From: Spizellomyces punctatus DAOM BR117
Lineage: Eukaryota; Chytridiomycota; Chytridiomycetes; Spizellomycetales; Spizellomycetaceae
Assembly (NCBI RefSeq): GCF_000182565.1
Contig: NW_015971552.1
Span: forward strand, 431,353-495,352
DNA: 64,000 nt
Reading direction: 5' to 3'
Both the position numbers and the translations under genes were made by a program. Below, piece after piece: positions 41,561-49,940 of the stretch. The notes under the pieces were generated by a model. That model saw nothing but the letters and a program-made list of their open reading frames with translations, had not been told where the DNA came from and did no database searches. Positions within the stretch are counted from its first letter, which is position 1; each line of letters opens with the position of its first letter.

Positions 41561-41767
41561 CATCAATAAGCATACAGTGCATTATGATACCTACCTTATG
41601 CAAACGCTAAATATCGGCTGCCTTGAATCCGTAGCTCTTTCATATCATCCAAACGGTATCAATGCTGCTATTGCTTCGCAAAAAATGTATTCCTTTGAGT
41701 TGTTAGCGGGAGCAGCACTTCAGCTTATCATGAACAGTCCCCGAGGCGTCCAACCGCCTATGTTGTT

Positions 41768-42010
41768 GAGCGTGAGCTTGACTAGTATTATGAATGCCGA
41801 CACAGGGAGAGAGAGCATTTCTGGTGTACCAAAAGAACGCCTTATCAGGAGCTCTAGGAAGTGGGGAACACCGCGCTGCCTCCTCTATTGCATGGAATTG
41901 GTTCCATGCAATACTTTGGTACATACAGCATACCAGCCAGGTGAAACTGCCGATTCGTTGACACGTTATGCCTACGCATAAGGTGCGCCCATGATCCAAC
42001 AGCAATGGTC
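41768..42010 (-). repeat. Repeated intron, copy A (truncated)
   Basis: This copy keeps the 3' part of the element, the GA-run, the perfect inner palindrome (arms 41887-41897 and 41902-41912, loop TTGG) and part of the CT-run. It has lost the GTAAGGCGGGG donor end. Confidence 0.6.
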
Positions 42011-42107
42011 CCTCTCTAACTGTGTTTTCGGATCAAAGGACATTGTACTTGTTGGAAGGAGCATCCGAGAAGATCGCTTGAGTTACTAAATCTCGTATTC
42101 CCGTCGT

Positions 42108-42436
42108 CTATATGAGCAGGCAGAGATATGGCGCGAGTTTGACCAGCATTATGGAAACTGATACAGAGAGAGAGAGAGCACTTTCTGATGCACCAAAAGA
42201 ACGCCTCTTCAGGGGTTCTAGGATGTGGGGAAACCTCGCTGCATCCTCTATACATGGAACCAATTCCATGTATACTGGCGCCCCAGCATACCAGCCAGCA
42301 CAAGCCTAGCGGGCACCGCGGACCGAGCTTGACACGTTATGCACATGCATAAGGTGCGCCCACTCCAACAGCAATGGTCTCTCTCTCCCTGTGTGAGTAT
42401 CGGATCCAGGGATACTGAAGCAAACCCCCGCCTTAC
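42108..42436 (-). repeat. Repeated intron, copy B
   Basis: On the minus strand this 329-nt copy begins GTAAGGCGGGGGTTTGC and shares the body of the other copies. Its acceptor side differs: it ends CATATAG. The inner palindrome has 11-nt arms at 42249-42259 and 42264-42274 with loop CCAA. Confidence 0.65.
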
Positions 42437-42515
42437 CGGTCAACTCAACAGCGAGGAACGATGGCGACAAGAGAAAGTGGGCGACGCGCGGTGGGTAAAG
42501 AGATTTGAGGTATGA

Positions 42516-42885
42516 CTACATGCAGAGAAACAGCGTGAGTTTGACCAGTATTACGTATACTGACACAGAGCGAGAGAGAGAGCATTCTCTGGTGCACCAA
42601 AAGAACGCCTTATCAGGGGCTCTAGGAAGTGGGGAACACCGCGCTGCAACCTCTATTGGATGGAATTGGTTCCATGCAATACTTTGGTACCTCCAGAATA
42701 CCGGCCAGCACAATGCTAGCGGGCAGCCGCCGACTGAGCACGAACAGGGCAATCTGGAACTGCCGAGTTCGCTTGACACGTTATGCATATGCATAAGGCG
42801 CGCCCAAAATCAAACAGCAATGGTCTCTCTCTCTCTGTGTGTGTTTGTATCGGATCCAAGCATACTGAAGCAAACCCCGCCTTAC
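42516..42885 (-). repeat. Repeated intron, copy C
   Basis: The copy is 370 nt, GTAAGGCGGGGTTTGC to CTGCATGTAG on the minus strand. It has a CT-run inside the 3' end, a GA-run inside the 5' end, and an imperfect inner palindrome. Confidence 0.75.
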
Positions 42886-42944
42886 CGGTCAACTCATACA
42901 GCGAAGGGACGATGGCGCGGTAGGTAAAGAGATTTGAGGTATGA

Positions 42945-43306
42945 CTACATGCAGAAAAAAACAGCGTGAGTTTGACCAGTATCAATGCGCACGGTGAGAG
43001 AGAGAGAGCACATCTCTTGAATTACAGAAGAACCGCCTTTTCAGGGGGCCTAGGATGTGGGGAGGTTCACCGCGAGTGCATCCTGTATCCACGGAACGAA
43101 TTCCATGGATACTCTGCGACCAGAGAACACCGGCCAGCATAGGCTAGCGAGCGCTGGGGACTAAGCACATTGCCGGGCAATATGAAACTGCCGAGGTTCG
43201 CTTGACGCGTTATGCATAGGCATAAGGCTCGCTTGACCTTCAGGTAATGGTCTCTCTCTCTCTGCGTGTACCAGATCCAAGAACACTAGAGCAAACTCCG
43301 CCTTAC
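42945..43306 (-). repeat. Repeated intron, copy D
   Basis: The copy is 362 nt and almost identical to copy E at 47441-47803. It starts GTAAGGCGGAG and ends CTGCATGTAG. The inner palindrome has 12-nt arms at 43085-43096 and 43101-43112 with one mismatch, loop CGAA. Confidence 0.8.
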
Positions 43307-43567
43307 CTTAATCGTGCAGCGATGTGACGATGGCCAGGAAATCGGAAAGAGATGCTGGAGGGGAAAAAGCAAGAGACGCGCTTTTATAACCCACGCGCGC
43401 AAGGGGTAGAAGTTCGGACACGTGAGACTCTGCTCCGTCCGATGACACCCAACACTTGTTTTTGCATATACTCGGCTGTGATAAATATATTCCAAATTGA
43501 CAATCCAGAAATGAATGGACTGCATGGCAGCAGAGAGGAATCAACCAAAACACCCACTGGACAATGT

Positions 43568-43775
43568 GCAGAGAAGCTCTGCTCACTGCGAATGATGCCA
43601 AAAAACACAACACACAACGTCCACTAGACAAATGTGCAGAGAAGCTCTGCTCAAAAGTCGAATGGTGCCAAATAAATGCAACACACTACACCCGCTCGAT
43701 AATTTGCAGAGAAACTCTGCTTATAGTCGAATGATGCCGATACCGCAGGCTGGACCATGTGCAGAGAAACTCTGC
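43568..43775. repeat. Tandem array of four hairpin units
   Basis: Four units of 55-70 bp each begin with a GCAGAG-AAR-CTCTGC palindrome (43568-43582, 43636-43650, 43706-43720, 43761-43775). Three of them are followed by a GAATGRTGCC word. The array lies upstream of the minus-strand promoter at 43.4 kb. Two units of the same type lie upstream of the related gene at 48282-48353, in the opposite orientation. Confidence 0.8.
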
Positions 43776-44045
43776 TCCCAGTTCAGCGCAATTTGACCAC
43801 GTTCATGTTTGCGAATGATGCTGAAGAAGTGTGCACACGAATATTGTAAACAAAGTAGAATCAGTTTGACAGCAAGCCATATGCATGTCCAACCACATCT
43901 CCGCTATCAAACCCCCTCGGATGTTCTCAAGCCCCTTGGGCTTGGGATGGATGATGATCGCCGATATAGCACCCCGTAAATCTACCAACTATTTAGGCTT
44001 CCGTCTGGCTGAGAGGAACTCTCAACCATTGCAGTAATAGCAGTA

Positions 44046-45038
44046 ATGAATTTCCACCTATTCTACGAGGAAGACGGCTGTGAAAATGGTTTTGTTTGCC
44101 GCTCCGACGGCAACATTTTAGTAGCCACAAACGACAACGAAATAACAATTACCCTGGGAGAAGAAAAGCCTCCTAACCTAGGCCCCTCATCCAGCATTCA
44201 TGATTTGGTCGCAGAGAAACTCTGCGACCAACCAACCAAAAGAACTGCCAAGGAGATTGAAGAGGATCTTGACGCCAGGAGGAGAGAACTGACCATCGCT
44301 CGCGAACAGCGTGATTTTGGGAACGCAAAATTCCTTCACTTCGAAAAAATCCCGCAGTTGCAAGAGGAACTCTTGCAAGTTCTTGGGACGAATAGGACGG
44401 AAGATCGCAGAGAACCCTCTGCGCCAGTCCTTTCAGCCGAGGAGGACTTTATTGCCCTGCCCAGCGACGATGAAGAAGTAAATTTCTCGTGCGCAAAAAA
44501 GGCGAAACGTTACTGGGCTGTGCCCGCGAAGAAAGCCAGAGTGGAGAAAATGAGCGTCGACAACGAGGATCTTAGGATCCAGCTCTCGTCAGCAGGGACC
44601 AGCTCACAGCATGCTCTCGAGGCGGTTCAGCAAAGAAAGCCGAGAAAGGGAACCCGGGACCGTTACCACTGTAAAGTCGATCTGTACATCAACGGCAAAC
44701 TGTGGAAACGCGATTGTGTTTTTGTGATCGTTACCAAGCAGGGCTCAGAAAGATCCACGGTCTCTGTTCAATACGATCTGTCTGAAGAGCTTCCTCTTCA
44801 AACAACACGGCCCAGATACATCATTTACCATGACAGGACGTATATATCGTTCGACGATACCCGTCCTCCCCACGCAATCACCTTCAGCAGTGCTACCGGG
44901 TTCTTTGACTGGTACCACAATGAAGATTTTCGCGGCTTTGCATTCCAGTACGCGGGCAACATCAATGAGATACTCATTGCTGACGTGGAAGGCAAAGATT
45001 CGTTGGCAATAATGTATGAGGCCCTACACCGGCTGTGA
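44046..45038 (+). CDS. Unknown accessory protein (plus-strand partner), 330 aa
   Basis: A single open exon starts with MNFHLFYEEDGCENGFVCRSDGNILVATNDNEITITLGEE. A helical, charged middle follows (KEIEEDLDARRRELTIAREQRDFGNAKFLHFEKIPQLQEELLQ), which recalls the coiled-coil linker of ClpB/Hsp104 or a UVR motif, but only loosely. A basic stretch (KKAKRYWAVPAKKARVEK) could be a nuclear signal. The C-terminal 150 aa look folded and end YNINGKLWKRDC-like through FEYHNEDFRGFAFQY-like beta-rich text to YEALHRL. Five strong palindromes lie inside the coding region (see hairpin entry), each read through in frame. No family is recognised. It is convergent with the gene ending at 45293, and the same pair recurs in damaged form at 48.5-49.9 kb. 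Confidence 0.65.
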   Translation: MNFHLFYEEDGCENGFVCRSDGNILVATNDNEITITLGEEKPPNLGPSSSIHDLVAEKLCDQPTKRTAKEIEEDLDARRRELTIAREQRDFGNAKFLHFEKIPQLQEELLQVLGTNRTEDRREPSAPVLSAEEDFIALPSDDEEVNFSCAKKAKRYWAVPAKKARVEKMSVDNEDLRIQLSSAGTSSQHALEAVQQRKPRKGTRDRYHCKVDLYINGKLWKRDCVFVIVTKQGSERSTVSVQYDLSEELPLQTTRPRYIIYHDRTYISFDDTRPPHAITFSSATGFFDWYHNEDFRGFAFQYAGNINEILIADVEGKDSLAIMYEALHRL

Positions 45039-45292
45039 TCGGAGAGTATCTCTCCGTGGAAGCAGATGGCAGGCAAGTAACGATCATATGCAACATCAAT
45101 GAGTTCCTCATTGTGATGCAACAGACTAGGTGATATACCTCGGTTGACTTGCAAGAAATATGCTCTCAGTGCAAAAGAATGATTGCAAGAAGATAGGATA
45201 TGTAATGTAAAATAAAACAACAATCTTTTGCGACACCGTCTCTTGAGTTTACAAAGCACGCTATTCGGAAGAGAATCTCTTCCGGACAGGAG

Positions 45293-48031
45293 CTAACGGA
45301 CCTTCTTCTTTGGTGTAGCACCAGCGAGCGGTGCTGACGCGCGAGACCAGGTTTTAGGTCGATCTGTGCTGTTCTTCACCAGAGGTCGCGGCTTTACGCC
45401 ATGAGCACCGCCTCTGGACCAAATGCTGGCCCTTCGCTGCTTCTTGCCGAATGTAGATACAAGACGGCGTGCAGCTGTTTGTAAATCTGCCTGTAAGGAT
45501 GCAGCATTTCCGGCGAGGGCCTACAGACTATGCATAAGCCACGCTGTTGCAGCAAGCACAGAAATCGCCAACAGTACCTCAAAGAGCAAAAAGTTCTCAG
45601 CCATGTCCAAGATGGAGAGGATCTCTCCATTCATGCCTGCAGAATCAACCGCGGCCCACTCTGCAAATGCGTAGAGCTCATCGCATACAACGAACATGCA
45701 GAAAAAGCGAACGGTGTAGTCTCGGATAACGTGGAATGGTACAGCAATCTGAGCAAATCCGTGTTTGAGCTCCTTGGACGGCGCGATGTTCTGTGCTTCC
45801 AGATGCACACACGTCTTCTTGACCAAGGATCGAATTTGTGCTATTGCACACTATCGAAAGTTCAAATGTCAGAGATAACTATTTAGGCTTCCATTTGGCT
45901 GAGAGGAACTCTCAACCATTGCAGTAATAGCAGTGATGAACTTCGACAGATGCCCCAAAGAGATTCTCTTTGGGGTGTCCGACATTGAATAATGAAAGTA
46001 AAACTTGATAGTACCTTGGTCGCCGCAATGAAGTCTCCATCACGTTTGTCACGGGAAGATTTGTAGCCGAAATTCTCACCCACCCCAATTTCATCAGTAC
46101 CCAGAAAGTAGTCGAAATCAACCTTCTTTCCGCCGCTGGTAGTGGATTGTCGTCTTTTCTTGTCCTCGTCATCGGCGCGCGAACATCCTTCACCACTGGC
46201 GAGAGCAGGTGAGCACAGTCAGTATCGATGATATGTCAATTGCGGTGTCATTACTTACTAACGTACTCCTGCGTTCGGCAATTTGGCAAAAGGGACAACA
46301 TAGTAGATGTCAATGGTCCTCTCCGTGGGGTTCTGTGGACAGTTCGCAATGTCGGCGCTGAGGTAGCAGCAGGGTTAATGGCATCAAAGGTGAGAGAAGC
46401 TCTCACTGAAACTGAGATACCATTCAACCAATTTTCTGCAGATCCAGATAGTCATCTCGTCGTCCTTATCCATCTGCCTGGCGTCATTTTCCAACTTGCT
46501 CCAAATCTCACGAGTTTCATTGCACTCTTCAGCGGCAGAATCCTCCGATGTTTGAGATGTATGGTCTTCGTCGTCTTCAGAGAGTATCCTCTCTGTGAGG
46601 TTCCGAAGAGACCGCTTCAGTAAGTCAATGAGACCTGCAGTACCATGGACCATTATGGTTCTCGCGAGAACAGAGACATCTCTGTTCAGCTCATGACATT
46701 CCAGGAGTGTTCGCATCACTGACAACAGCGCCACAGCTGAGGAACTCAGCTTTGCACTAGCGCGATTCATGATCCGCTCGAATTGACTCACAAGCTGCTG
46801 GTGGGTGGTGTAGTCGACAAATTCCGTAGCTCTTTCATTATCATCCAAAGGGTAATCGGGGTCATGATCTCGTAAGTCCAGCGCTGACCAGAAGAGAGTA
46901 CTTACAACTTAAGATTAGACAATGAAGTAATCTTAGGGAAACAGTTTGCAAGTACCTTGTTGCTTTATGCTCCTTTCGAAAGTTGATCATTGCCGATATC
47001 GCCTTCTCAAAAACTGTATTCATCTGCGTTGTAGGTAGTGGGGGTGGTACTTCCACTTCATCACGACAAGTGCCCGAGGCGTCCAATCGCAGTGGTCCAT
47101 GAAGAGCGTTCTCTTCATGTTCGTCCCCCAACTTCCTCTTCAGAAAAGTACCGGACGCGTTCAAACGCAGTGTTTCATGAAGAGCGTTCTCTTCATGCTC
47201 TTTCTCCAACTCTATCTTCTGATATGTACCCAAGGCGTCCATACGCAGTGGTTCATGAAGAGAGTTCTCTTCGCGTTCTTCGTCGAAGGTCCTCTGCGGA
47301 TGCGCATGGGCGATATGGACATGTTCATTTGAGCCGCTGACGTTGTTGATGAATTTACCGCGACTATGTATGCGATAAGTGGTCATGTCGCGTTTTTTAA
47401 GCGTCCGCTGAAGGGACTTATCTAGAGATCTGCAGTATGCCTGCGTGCAGAGAAACAGCGTGAGTTTGACCAGTATCAATGCGCACGGTGAGAGAGAGAG
47501 AGCACATCTCTTAGATGACAGAAGAACCGCCTTTTCAGGGGGCCTAGGATGTGGGGAGGTTCACCGCGAGTGCATCCTGTATCCACGGAACGAATTCCAT
47601 GGATACTCTGCGATCAGAGAACACCGGCCAGCACAAGGCTAGCGAGCGCTGGGGACGAAGCGCATTGCCGGGCAATATGAAACTGCCGGGGTTAGCTTGA
47701 CGCGTTATGCATGGGCATAAGGCGCGCTTGGTCTACAGATAATGGTCTCTCTCTCTCTGTGCGTGTATCAGATCCAAGAACACTAGAGCAAACCCCGCCT
47801 TACCGGATCAATAATCAGTCGTGCAGCTCTCTCTCGTAAATCTTTGGGAAGAGAATCCTCTTCCGCGAAGTTCTTGAGTATCTCAAGGACGTCAGAGACA
47901 GTTGTTCGGTTCGTAGGAGGAAGTGGGCAATCCAGGAAGAGCGCTTGCACAACAGATTTTGCACTCCAGTCGCGTAAGTCGTTAGCGTGAAAGTATTCTT
48001 TCAAAAATTCCCGTTGAATTGCGCGGGACAT
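45293..48031 (-). CDS. Unknown accessory protein (minus-strand partner), 657 aa
   Basis: Seven coding exons close in phase: 48031-47804, 47440-46956, 46900-46421, 46357-46259, 46195-46015, 45850-45578 and 45520-45293. The leader has a further 88-nt intron (48139-48052). Exon 1 (MSRAIQREFLKEYFHANDLRDWSAKSVVQALF...) is a small helical domain shared with the fragment at 49728-49940. Exon 2 has three copies of a 25-aa repeat around LHEPLRMDALGTYQK / LHETLRLNASGTFLK / LHGPLRLDASGTC. Exon 3 is helical and acidic. Exon 5 has DDEDKKRRQS. The C-terminus is basic (GKKQRR, then ATPKKKVR at the end), like nuclear localisation signals. The junction 45577-45521 removes an in-frame TAG. No known family is seen; a nuclear protein is inferred. 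Intron 1 is a full copy (E) of the repeated intron. Internal introns beyond the first were chosen on phase and should be confirmed by cDNA. Confidence 0.6.
47441..47803 (-). repeat. Repeated intron, copy E (intron 1 of the 657-aa gene)
   Basis: The copy is 363 nt on the minus strand, GTAAGGCGGGGTTTGC to CTGCACGCAG. It separates codon-phase-0 exons ending ARLIIDP and beginning AYCRSLDKS, so it is a true intron here. It is nearly identical to copy D over its whole length. Confidence 0.85.
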
Positions 48032-48051
48032 GGGCTAACGGAGATATGTGA

Positions 48052-48139
48052 CTACACGCAGAGATAGAGCGTGAGTTTGACCAGCATTTGGCAGAGAGAG
48101 ATTCTCTCTCTGTGTGTGTGTAGGAAAACCCTGCCTTAC
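48052..48139 (-). repeat. Repeated intron, copy F (88-nt short form, leader intron)
   Basis: This copy has the same donor end (GTAAGGCAGGG) and the same acceptor end (TGGTCAAACTCACGCT to GCGTGTAG) as the long copies. The inside is replaced by one perfect palindrome at 48092-48112 made of the element's own GA and CT runs. It lies 20 nt upstream of the start codon at 48031. Confidence 0.75.
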
Positions 48140-48179
48140 CTCCACTACATGCAGCGAAGCGACGATGGTGGAGGTTATG

Positions 48180-48260
48180 ACCTACGCGCGTAAGGGGTAA
48201 GTTCGGACACGTGAGACTCCGCTCCGTCCGATGACACCCCAACACATGTTTTGCATAACC
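48180..48260 (-). promoter_or_regulatory. Promoter-like block shared with 43380-43475
   Basis: The block contains CACGTG (E-box) within GGACACGTGAGACTC and the text CTCCGTCCGATGACACCC, conserved in order between the two loci. It lies just upstream of the leader exon of the 657-aa gene. A promoter role is inferred from place and conservation. Confidence 0.4.
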
Positions 48261-48544
48261 AAGTTGACAATCTAGATATAAATGCAGAGTTTCTCTGCAT
48301 ATGGTCCAGCTTGCGGTATTGGCATCATTCAACTGTGAGCAGAGCTTCTCTGCGCATTGTCCAGCGGGTGGGTGTTGTGTGTAGCATTTATTTGCCGTCA
48401 TTGGACTGTACAGTACAGTACAACTATATCGACTATTTCATCGGACAGATAACGGGAACATAGCAGAAACACTTGTCCGATCAAAAACTCGATACTGGTT
48501 GTAATGGGGAGTACCCCGCTGATGTAACACCCCGTAACTCTACT

Positions 48545-49240
48545 AACTATTTAGGCTTCCATCTGGTGAGAGGAACTCTCAACCATTGCAGTAAATTTTC
48601 ATCTCTATTTCGAGAATGAAGGCGTTGTTCTCCCAGCGTGATTGTTACTTCGGTGTCCGTTGTCGCCACTAAAATGTTGCCGTCTGTGCGGCACACGAAT
48701 CCGTACAGCCTCGCAACCAAGGCCCTGTACACCGAGTATCGTCGATTTGATCGGAGAGAAACTCTCGGAAGAAGAATGCCCGCAAGGAAAGCAAACCAAA
48801 AGAACTGCAGCGGACATCGAATAGGATCTTCACGCATCATACTGAATAGAGACCGTCGATCTCTCTGAGCCCTTCTTGGTAACTATCACAAAAACAGAAG
48901 CATGTTTCCAGATTTACATGATTGACAACGAATCTTTGCCTTCCACGTCAGCAATGAGTATCTCATTGATGTCGCCGGGGTACTCCAAGGCAAAGCCGCG
49001 AAAATCTACGTTATGATACCAATCTACTGAATGTGATGGCGTGCGGAGGACGGGTATCGTCGAACGATATATACGTCCTGTCAGCGTAGGCCCGGTTCAA
49101 TAATGTATGAGGCGCTACACCGGCTGTGATTGGAGAGTATCTCTCCATGGATTGCAGGCAAGTAAAGATCATATGCAACATCAATGAGTTCCTCATTGCT
49201 GATGCAACAGACTAGGTGGCACGGATATACATCGGTTGAC
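48545..49240 (+). pseudogene. Scrambled copy of the 330-aa gene
   Basis: The copy starts like the intact one: the shared leader (TTTAGGCTTCCATCTGG, a TGAGAG hairpin, AACCATTGCAGTAA), then TTTCATCTCTATTTCGAGAATGA-like text. The block 48618-48703 then reads as the reverse complement of 44085-44165 (minus strand GFVCRTDGNILVATTDTEVTITLGE). Forward order resumes (KQTKRTAADIE) with a premature stop. The block about 48845-49085 is again inverted, matching 44690-44765 and 44826-45005 in reverse order. Forward text returns at 49085 (NNVWGATPAVIG-like frame lost, then the stop region). The gene cannot encode the protein. Confidence 0.8.
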
Positions 49241-49439
49241 TTGCAAAAAATGTGCTCTCAGTGAAGTTCCCGAAGTTACGGATCTATTTTGCCGACTTCC
49301 CTTAGCTACATTGTTCTATAAATTAGAGGCTGTTCACCTTGGAGACCTGCTGCGGTTATGAGTACGACTAGGTGTGAAGATAGGATAGTGAAATGTAAAA
49401 TAAAGCAATAATCTTCTACACCGGTTCTTGAGTTTCCAA

Positions 49440-49940
49440 GGCATGCTATTCGGGAGAGAATCTCTTCCCGACAGGATCTAACGGACCTTGTTCTTTGGTG
49501 TAGCACCTCGCTGCATCCTCTAAACATGGAACCAATTGCAACATACTTTGGCACCCCAGCATATCGGCCAGCACAAGGATCGCGGGCACACGAAGAGGGC
49601 AATTGGAAACTGCCGAGGTCGCTTGAGGCGTTGTGCAGATGCACAAGGTGCGCCCACTCCAACAGCAATGGTCTCCTACAATCTATGTGTGTATCAGATA
49701 AGGACACTGAAGCAAACCCCGCCTTACTTCACAAACAGCCAGTCCCGCAGCTTTCTGTCGCCGCTCTATTGAAAGAGAGGTCGCTTTCTCATGGTCCTTG
49801 AGCACCTCAAGGATTTCTGGGACACTGTAGATCTTGAGAGGACCCTCCGATAACATCACTTTAGCTACAGTTCTCATATCCCAGGCGTCTAAATGAGCAG
49901 TACAAAAGTAGTCTTTTAGAAAGCTGTTAAGGGATGACAT
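49440..49940 (-). pseudogene. Truncated paralogue of the 657-aa gene
   Basis: Exon 1 (49940-49728, 71 codons: MSSLNSFLKDYFCTAHLDAWDMRTVAKVMLSEG...) matches exon 1 of the intact gene and stops at the same phase-0 splice donor GTAAGGCGGGG. The intron that follows (copy G, 49727 to about 49505) is cut inside. It runs directly into the 3' end of the last exon (ATPKNKVR and a stop at about 49483), so all middle exons are deleted. A hairpin at 49770-49790 sits at the same place as the one at 47847 in the intact gene. Confidence 0.7.
49505..49727 (-). repeat. Repeated intron, copy G (truncated)
   Basis: This copy keeps the donor end (GTAAGGCGGGGTTTGCTTCA) and the middle, including a degraded inner palindrome near 49525. 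The acceptor end is lost by fusion to the last exon of the gene. Confidence 0.7.

Follow-up and report, generated by a model that had tools for sequence, protein, structure and literature searches.

Why one locus should carry dozens of short hairpins whose arms differ from site to site while their tip stays the same is the question raised by a 64-kb stretch of the genome of the chytrid fungus Spizellomyces punctatus DAOM BR117 (24.0 Mb, 29 contigs). This whole stretch is called the window, and all positions refer to it. The hairpins lie in nuclear DNA, at a locus formed by the gene SPPG_07619, a convergent and unannotated open reading frame (ORF A) and degenerate copies. Each has GAG facing CTC across a loop of 3 or 4 nucleotides (GAG-N3/4-CTC). 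The array is real and not due to chance. The explanation that we prefer, and to which we give an even chance, is that the locus is an array of hairpin recognition sites for a putative protein, probably in nascent RNA.

A hairpin array with one tip at one locus

The window contains 58 GAG-N3/4-CTC places, 34 of them with perfectly complementary arms of at least 5 bp. All 34 perfect stems lie inside 43568-49813; elsewhere in the window, GAG stems with an arm of at least 5 bp are absent. Arms measure 5-12 bp (at least 6 bp in 33 of the 34), the loop has 3 nucleotides in 26 stems and 4 in 8, and the GAG/CTC core usually has A-T as the next pair outward. The original prediction of about 35 stems of 5-12 bp was therefore accurate in number and size. 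Its end point at 49198 fell short of the stem at 49795-49813 and of an imperfect one at 49452-49468, and its cluster of 42-50 kb was slightly wide, since it took in repeats at 41.8-43.3, 47.4-47.8 and 49.5-49.7 kb that are free of these hairpins.

The tip is specific. When any apical triplet was allowed (loop 3 or 4, arm at least 6 bp), 33 of the 42 readings in the cluster were GAG, and no other triplet occurred more than twice at a given loop length. The stems, sorted by eye, fall into about 20 independent families, the others being duplicates within local copies; as had been proposed, this is a repeated architecture and not one copied sequence. Among 14 stems with 3-nucleotide loops from different families, 98% of cells pair, versus 71% with partners shuffled, figures that describe rather than test the array because the rows were pre-selected as hairpins. 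A covariance model built from 14 stems recovered 35 cluster sites, each scoring at least 14.0 bits on its better strand, the next-best score in the window being 11.7 bits. Predicted RNA folding with 60 nucleotides on either side gave mean pair probabilities of 0.85 (plus strand) and 0.89 (minus strand). Rfam returned no matches in the window.

The stems were also correctly described as independent of coding status. According to the exon model, 5 lie in ORF A, 9 in exons and 3 in introns of SPPG_07619, 1 in the exon of a partial paralogue (C2) and 16 in noncoding or pseudogene sequence. Their density is about 1 per 210 nucleotides in the exons of both genes and about 1 per 170 nucleotides elsewhere, and coding status thus appears to carry little weight. 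GAG is in frame in 11 of the 15 exonic stems. A protein-level cause (Glu-x-Leu codons) was rejected as the whole cause, since 19 stems lie outside those exons; where SPPG_07619 aligns well to its paralogue SPPG_05127, the hairpin codons are, if anything, less conserved.

Chance expectation was estimated from 500 dinucleotide-preserving shuffles of 43500-49900. These gave a mean of 0.30 stems with arms of at least 5 bp (maximum 3, versus 34 observed) and of 0.07 with arms of at least 6 bp (maximum 2, versus 33). Twenty 10-kb stretches of the same genome (200 kb, about 1 kb of it N), four of which flank the window and three of which were chosen for pattern-search matches within them, held 10 and 3 such stems, respectively. 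Across 207,033 non-N bases from other places, at most 4 hairpins within 6.4 kb had the same triplet (TTT), against 33 in the cluster, and the covariance model found 11 matches at E<=10 in 208 kb of other stretches. An equal density in shuffled or ordinary genome sequence, named in the original prediction as the outcome that would count against it, was not observed.

Across the genome, RAGAG-N3-CTCTY occurs at 145 places, versus 88 for the reversed control. Places with AGAG-N3-CTCT were classed by S or W at the next two arm positions, the SS and WS classes being listed completely. The SS class has 23 places, 11 of them in the cluster; of the other 12, 3 form perfect 6-bp stems. The WS class has 19, with 5 in the cluster and perfect stems at 4 of the 14 outside. 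Of 56 SW places, the 50 listed include 2 in the cluster and eight others that are one 15-mer, GAAGAGAATCTCTTC. No second array was seen in SS, WS and the listed SW places, a search that did not extend to WW, to loops of 4 or to T at the fourth pair. The 15-mer is identical to part of a cluster stem and was considered as a dispersed copy; it was rejected as such because it lies inside an unrelated high-copy repeat. That repeat, about 97-99% identical among eight copies and holding a tandem array with a 48-bp period, is probably a transposable element.

A constant core, pairing arms and a free loop

The evolution of the stems was followed in 13 alignments of homologous blocks, several of which share copies, scored by position. 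Changes are present at 192 of 1067 flank sites and at 8 of 51 loop sites (loops versus flanks, p=0.85), and loops thus drift as flanks do. In the GAG/CTC core, a single site of 96 has changed. For arms versus flanks, p=8 × 10−6; outer arms, changed at 15 of 138 sites, are modestly less variable than flanks (p=0.04 overall, 0.05 in coding blocks). The core is intact in 12 of 13 copy pairs, some copies being counted twice, versus 5.05 expected from flank divergence. Its sole loss is in the partial paralogue, where the flanks differ at 61 of 150 sites. Stems have also survived in copy B, which is a scrambled pseudo-copy of the ORF A region.

Pairing is kept where arms change. Of 114 arm pairs, 11 have changed, 3 by compensatory replacement (44212/44224, C-G to G-C; 45040/45056, C-G to T-A; 47848/47863, G-C to A-T), 5 to G-T or A-C, and 3 to a broken pair. 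Random placement of the 14 changed sites yields 0.13 compensatory pairs, against the 3 found (P=0.00015, on small numbers). The pattern corresponds to a tip read by its sequence, arms that have to pair and a loop that can vary.

Apparent replacement in place within exons

SPPG_07619 has three distant paralogues: SPPG_05127, which is 39% identical and lies at C8:751.5 kb, and two others at C3:1193.8 kb and C8:264.6 kb. The 8 kb examined around the three (one reading frame leaves its stretch) hold no GAG stem with an arm above 4 bp, and for this sequence the suggestion that hits might concentrate in the gene family fails. Four exonic hairpins of SPPG_07619 (45612, 46578, 46668 and 46735) align ungapped to the hairpin-free SPPG_05127, although tblastn opens a one-residue gap at 46578; the two exon-1 stems are without counterpart there, and the three repeat-unit stems fall in poor or absent alignment. 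Hairpin residues are identical to SPPG_05127 at 6 of 28 positions, versus 150 of 362 elsewhere in the well-aligned part (p=0.045). Because the alignment is ungapped and fewer residues are identical, the four stems look like replacements in place, made at some cost to protein sequence, and not like inserts.

The ungapped alignment speaks against mobile palindromic insertion, which had been raised by comparison with fungal mitochondrial elements. A miniature inverted-repeat transposable element (MITE) or other mobile element was likewise set aside, dispersed copies not having been found in the pattern classes searched genome-wide. Decay from once-longer arms was tried as well: past the first mismatch, 55 of 160 positions in 20 selected stems are complementary, a proportion weakly above one quarter, and a gapped extension test gave a long extension in 0 of the 20.

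Proposed recognition of the hairpin tip

Among the options first put forward, structured RNA elements are the best. We infer that selection is the cause, that a binding protein is involved and that RNA, rather than extruded DNA, is its target. A structure- and sequence-specific nucleic-acid-binding protein would read the folded tip, with the three loop-proximal GAG/CTC pairs read by sequence, the outer arms needed for pairing alone and the loop of 3-4 nucleotides free to vary. Its target would most likely be RNA from the two convergent genes, either nascent or not yet spliced, in which many weak sites per transcript, bound together, might regulate, retain or protect the products of the locus. 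RNA is preferred because molecules of this length fold on their own and because sites are present in introns and spacers as well as in exons; the stems in introns and spacers also favour nascent over mature RNA.

Several results count against this explanation. The 13 alignments were chosen through BLAST, with its bias towards conserved sequence, and some copies are shared. Outer arms alone are weakly slower than flanks (p=0.04; noncoding p=0.32), and the compensatory pair 44212/44224 rests on alignment beside a large gap. The five one-sided G-T or A-C changes, compared by eye with gene direction, have no sense-strand preference, and RNA is therefore not favoured over DNA by them. Avoidance of unprotected GAG/CTC was rejected, as the frequency of these triplets outside hairpins (27.0 versus 28.3 per kb) indicates no depletion. 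A few outside stretches score like the weakest cluster sites (best 14.8 bits). No reader protein was recognised by sequence among the proteins of the locus, and ORF A, SPPG_07619 and its paralogues have no Pfam match above cut-off.

Should the stems be recognition sites, they would form a hairpin code laid over the coding, intronic and intergenic DNA of a single nuclear locus and preserved as the sequence around it changed, which would be a new means of marking a locus or its transcripts in a eukaryote. By analogy with virus packaging, the locus might even mark itself, one of its own two orphan proteins reading the GAG-tipped code in RNA or folded DNA and setting the products or DNA of the locus apart from the rest of the genome; we regard this extension as rather improbable. 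The locus could be a domesticated or selfish two-gene element.

Template switching as the chief rival

The chief rival is template-switch mutagenesis, in which one arm is copied from the other at replication; a mutational hot spot would then suffice and no function would be needed. Template switching is reported to create and homogenise inverted repeats in yeast genes (Abraham and Hazkani-Covo 2021, PMC8604942), and it has been proposed as the origin and upkeep of stems or hairpins in RNA (Monttinen and Loytynoja 2022, PMC8794818). As described there, such repeats resemble the present hairpins in being short, perfect inverted repeats kept perfect in place, with compensatory changes and inversions; they differ in having no fixed apical triplet, in occurring in many genes and in having inverted spacers.

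Several features of the locus are of the kind that this process leaves. The four exonic stems aligned to SPPG_05127 arose in place, and the 3 compensatory changes among 11 changed pairs are what homogenisation of arms predicts. Four in-place inversions of about 75-230 bp separate copy B from copy A, a type of change that template switching can make. In the r1-r6 repeat family of the same locus, whose stem is unrelated to the GAG hairpins, a loop is inverted between matching arms. Template switching is compatible with the pairing of the arms, yet it leaves the fixed core unexplained. The process selects no core, whereas 33 of 42 readings are GAG and other triplets reach at most 2 each; it would pass core mutations on to both arms instead of preventing them, whereas just 1 of 96 core sites changed. 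Among GAG loops that are unlike in two copies, none is the reverse complement of the other, and GAG-N3/4-CTC places without long arms occur elsewhere in the genome. In contrast to template-switch repeats, the array has one fixed triplet, uninverted GAG loops and one locus among those examined. We consider template switching a serious explanation, though an unlikely one. It may also act on the arms together with selection on the tip. If the stems have a mutational origin instead, the locus offers an unusually clean natural example of hairpin-making mutagenesis that is restricted to one locus and specific for one core, where the origin and persistence of perfect stems are directly testable.

Possible hairpins in DNA

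The stems could instead be extruded as DNA hairpins (cruciforms) and read by a DNA-binding protein, for example one controlling divergent promoters or transcription of the locus. Short hairpins with 3-nucleotide loops are readable in DNA, as in phage N4, and the indifference of the stems to exon, intron, spacer and strand, together with the four tandem stems upstream at 43568-43775, would fit. Arms of 6-12 bp, however, extrude only under strong supercoiling, and about half of the stems are within genes and not promoters. We regard this possibility as distinctly doubtful.

Highly improbable, in our view, is that the stems, as folded DNA, serve as targets for a sequence-specific endonuclease or a site-specific recombinase, one of the functions originally proposed. 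Integron attC hairpins are folded-DNA recombination sites and comparable in principle. A fixed short motif with variable paired arms would suit such enzymes, the locus is heavily rearranged, and one inversion junction lies exactly on hairpin 48282. The 31 block ends between rearranged copies, compiled by hand with one entered twice, lie at a mean distance of 46.5 bp from hairpins, versus 66.7 bp in circular-shift controls, 3% of which are as short. Only 4 of the 31, however, are within 10 bp of a hairpin, versus 6.2 in the controls, which lends the proposal no support. A central exchange would bring unlike arms together, but the arms are perfect, and neither kind of enzyme was recognised by sequence in ORF A or SPPG_07619.

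Chance, low complexity or assembly artefact can draw on the purine-rich 5' arms and on GA/CT runs in part of the locus, but is a negligible explanation: shuffles, genome stretches and flanks give almost no GAG stems, and the spliced annotated protein and the intact 330-codon ORF A read through 14 of them.

Comparison with known hairpin systems

Small RNA viruses carry tens of short stem-loop packaging signals that have a common minimal motif and variable stems, in coding and noncoding sequence. The present array likewise consists of many degenerate stem-loops with a common minimal motif and variable stems, in coding and noncoding sequence alike. It differs in lying in a nuclear two-gene locus with introns, in having its motif in the apical stem and not the loop, and in that no coat protein was recognised by sequence. 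Bacterial repetitive extragenic palindromes (REP) are 20-40 bp long, bear a GTAG/CGTC tag at one end and are extragenic and dispersed over the genome. They too are small palindromes with a constant short element; here, in contrast, it is the tip that stays constant, 15 of the 34 stems are exonic and one locus is involved. In fungal mitochondrial DNA, palindromic or hairpin elements occur as mobile insertions whose sequence is nearly constant. The array resembles them as hairpins scattered over genes and spacers of a fungus, but it is in nuclear genes, carries no sign of insertion and varies in arm sequence. The array has the full set of defining features of none of these families; in its proposed way of working it is most like dispersed stem-loop signals that a single protein reads. 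In the open-licence literature, we found no described element that combines an invariant apical triplet with pairing arms and unconstrained loops across the exons, introns and spacers of a nuclear locus.

Anatomy of the locus

Features of the locus are collected in Table 1. The exon model of SPPG_07619 gives the database protein exactly.

Table 1. Hairpins, genes and gene copies of the locus (window positions; arms in bp, loops in nucleotides)
Feature	Position	Strand	Arm	Loop	Location or remark
GAG hairpin	43568-43582		6	3	tandem repeat unit 1, upstream of ORF A
GAG hairpin	43636-43650		6	3	tandem unit 2, upstream of ORF A
GAG hairpin	43706-43720		6	3	tandem unit 3, upstream of ORF A
GAG hairpin	43761-43775		6	3	tandem unit 4, upstream of ORF A
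GAG hairpin	44010-44024		6		immediately 5' of ORF A start codon
GAG hairpin	44205-44231		12		ORF A exon, GAG in frame
GAG hairpin	44358-44378		9		ORF A exon, GAG in frame
GAG hairpin	44406-44423		7	4	ORF A exon
GAG hairpin	44783-44800		7	4	ORF A exon, GAG in frame
GAG hairpin	44963-44979		7		ORF A exon, GAG in frame
GAG hairpin	45040-45056		7		directly 3' of ORF A stop; outer C-G is T-A in the 49131 copy (compensatory)
GAG hairpin	45097-45113		7		downstream of ORF A
GAG hairpin	45266-45284		8		between ORF A and SPPG_07619 (convergent)
GAG hairpin	45612-45630		8		SPPG_07619 exon
GAG hairpin	45900-45914		6		SPPG_07619 intron; copy of 44010 module
GAG hairpin	45953-45975		10		SPPG_07619 intron
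GAG hairpin	46390-46406		7		SPPG_07619 intron
GAG hairpin	46578-46595		7	4	SPPG_07619 exon
GAG hairpin	46668-46687		8	4	SPPG_07619 exon
GAG hairpin	46735-46751		7		SPPG_07619 exon
GAG hairpin	47098-47119		9	4	SPPG_07619 exon repeat unit
GAG hairpin	47176-47197		9	4	SPPG_07619 exon repeat unit
GAG hairpin	47257-47272		6	4	SPPG_07619 exon repeat unit
GAG hairpin	47847-47864		7	4	SPPG_07619 exon 1; G-C to A-T pair in partial paralogue
GAG hairpin	47873-47887		6		SPPG_07619 exon 1
GAG hairpin	48092-48112		9		upstream of SPPG_07619
GAG hairpin	48282-48300		8		on inversion junction of copy B
GAG hairpin	48339-48353		6		copy B upstream region
GAG hairpin	48567-48581		6		copy B
GAG hairpin	48754-48766		5		copy B; arm followed by one mismatch
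GAG hairpin	48952-48968		7		copy B, within inverted segment
GAG hairpin	49131-49147		7		copy B; compensatory partner of 45040
GAG hairpin	49182-49198		7		copy B
Imperfect GAG hairpin	49452-49468				G-T pair; copy of 45266
GAG hairpin	49795-49813		8		C2 exon; homologue of 47873
ORF A	44046-45038	+			330 codons, single exon, unannotated, intact
SPPG_07619	45293-48031	-			657 aa, seven exons
SPPG_07619 exons	48031-47804, 47440-46956, 46900-46421, 46357-46259, 46195-46015, 45850-45578, 45520-45293	-			exon model
Copy B	48175-49507	+			scrambled pseudo-copy of ORF A region, four in-place inverted segments
Partial paralogue C2	49725-49940	-			exon 1 of SPPG_07619 family; converges with copy B

Relative to copy A (43384-45322), copy B keeps the order of its segments, with A43542-43775, 44088-44165, 44703-44777 and 44831-45016 inverted, and has stops in all three forward frames. 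Scrambling of this kind points to template switching or to local recombination. What look like remnants of a third unit lie at 41.6-43.4 kb.

ORF A found only itself among 5.8 billion proteins. SPPG_07619 and SPPG_05127 also found only themselves, the best 8000 word-sharing candidates being scored; absence from other species is not established by this, and the search with SPPG_07619 also missed the 39%-identical SPPG_05127. No solved structure matched ORF A or SPPG_07619 at E<=10, and the best match across the paralogues as well had E 0.24. Weak Pfam and PDB matches (UPF0253, Importin_rep_6, HEPN_Apea, DUF5765 and 7pku), below cut-off or at E 0.24, were not used. SPPG_07619 and SPPG_05127 represent a small S. 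punctatus protein family, and D-x(8)-E-x-G-x-G-E-N is common to three aligned members.

The r1-r6 repeats, about 230-400 bp long, occupy 41760-43330, 47424-47820 and 49500-49735 and are free of GAG hairpins; intron 1 of SPPG_07619 (GTAAGG...GCAG) is one member. As genome queries, r5 and r6 gave no matches beyond the hairpin locus. The family has two stems of its own with other cores, TTATGC-N4-GCATAA and one around GGAA-N4-TTCC. The first reads TTGTGC/GCACAA in r6, a compensatory change, and the loop of the second is inverted between r1/r3 (TTGG) and r2/r6 (CCAA).

Inserted in copy B at 48418-48504 is a MITE-like element of about 86 bp, with inverted ends TACAAC...GTTGTA identified by eye. Other contigs hold 18 full or partial matches to it, which are 78-97% identical.

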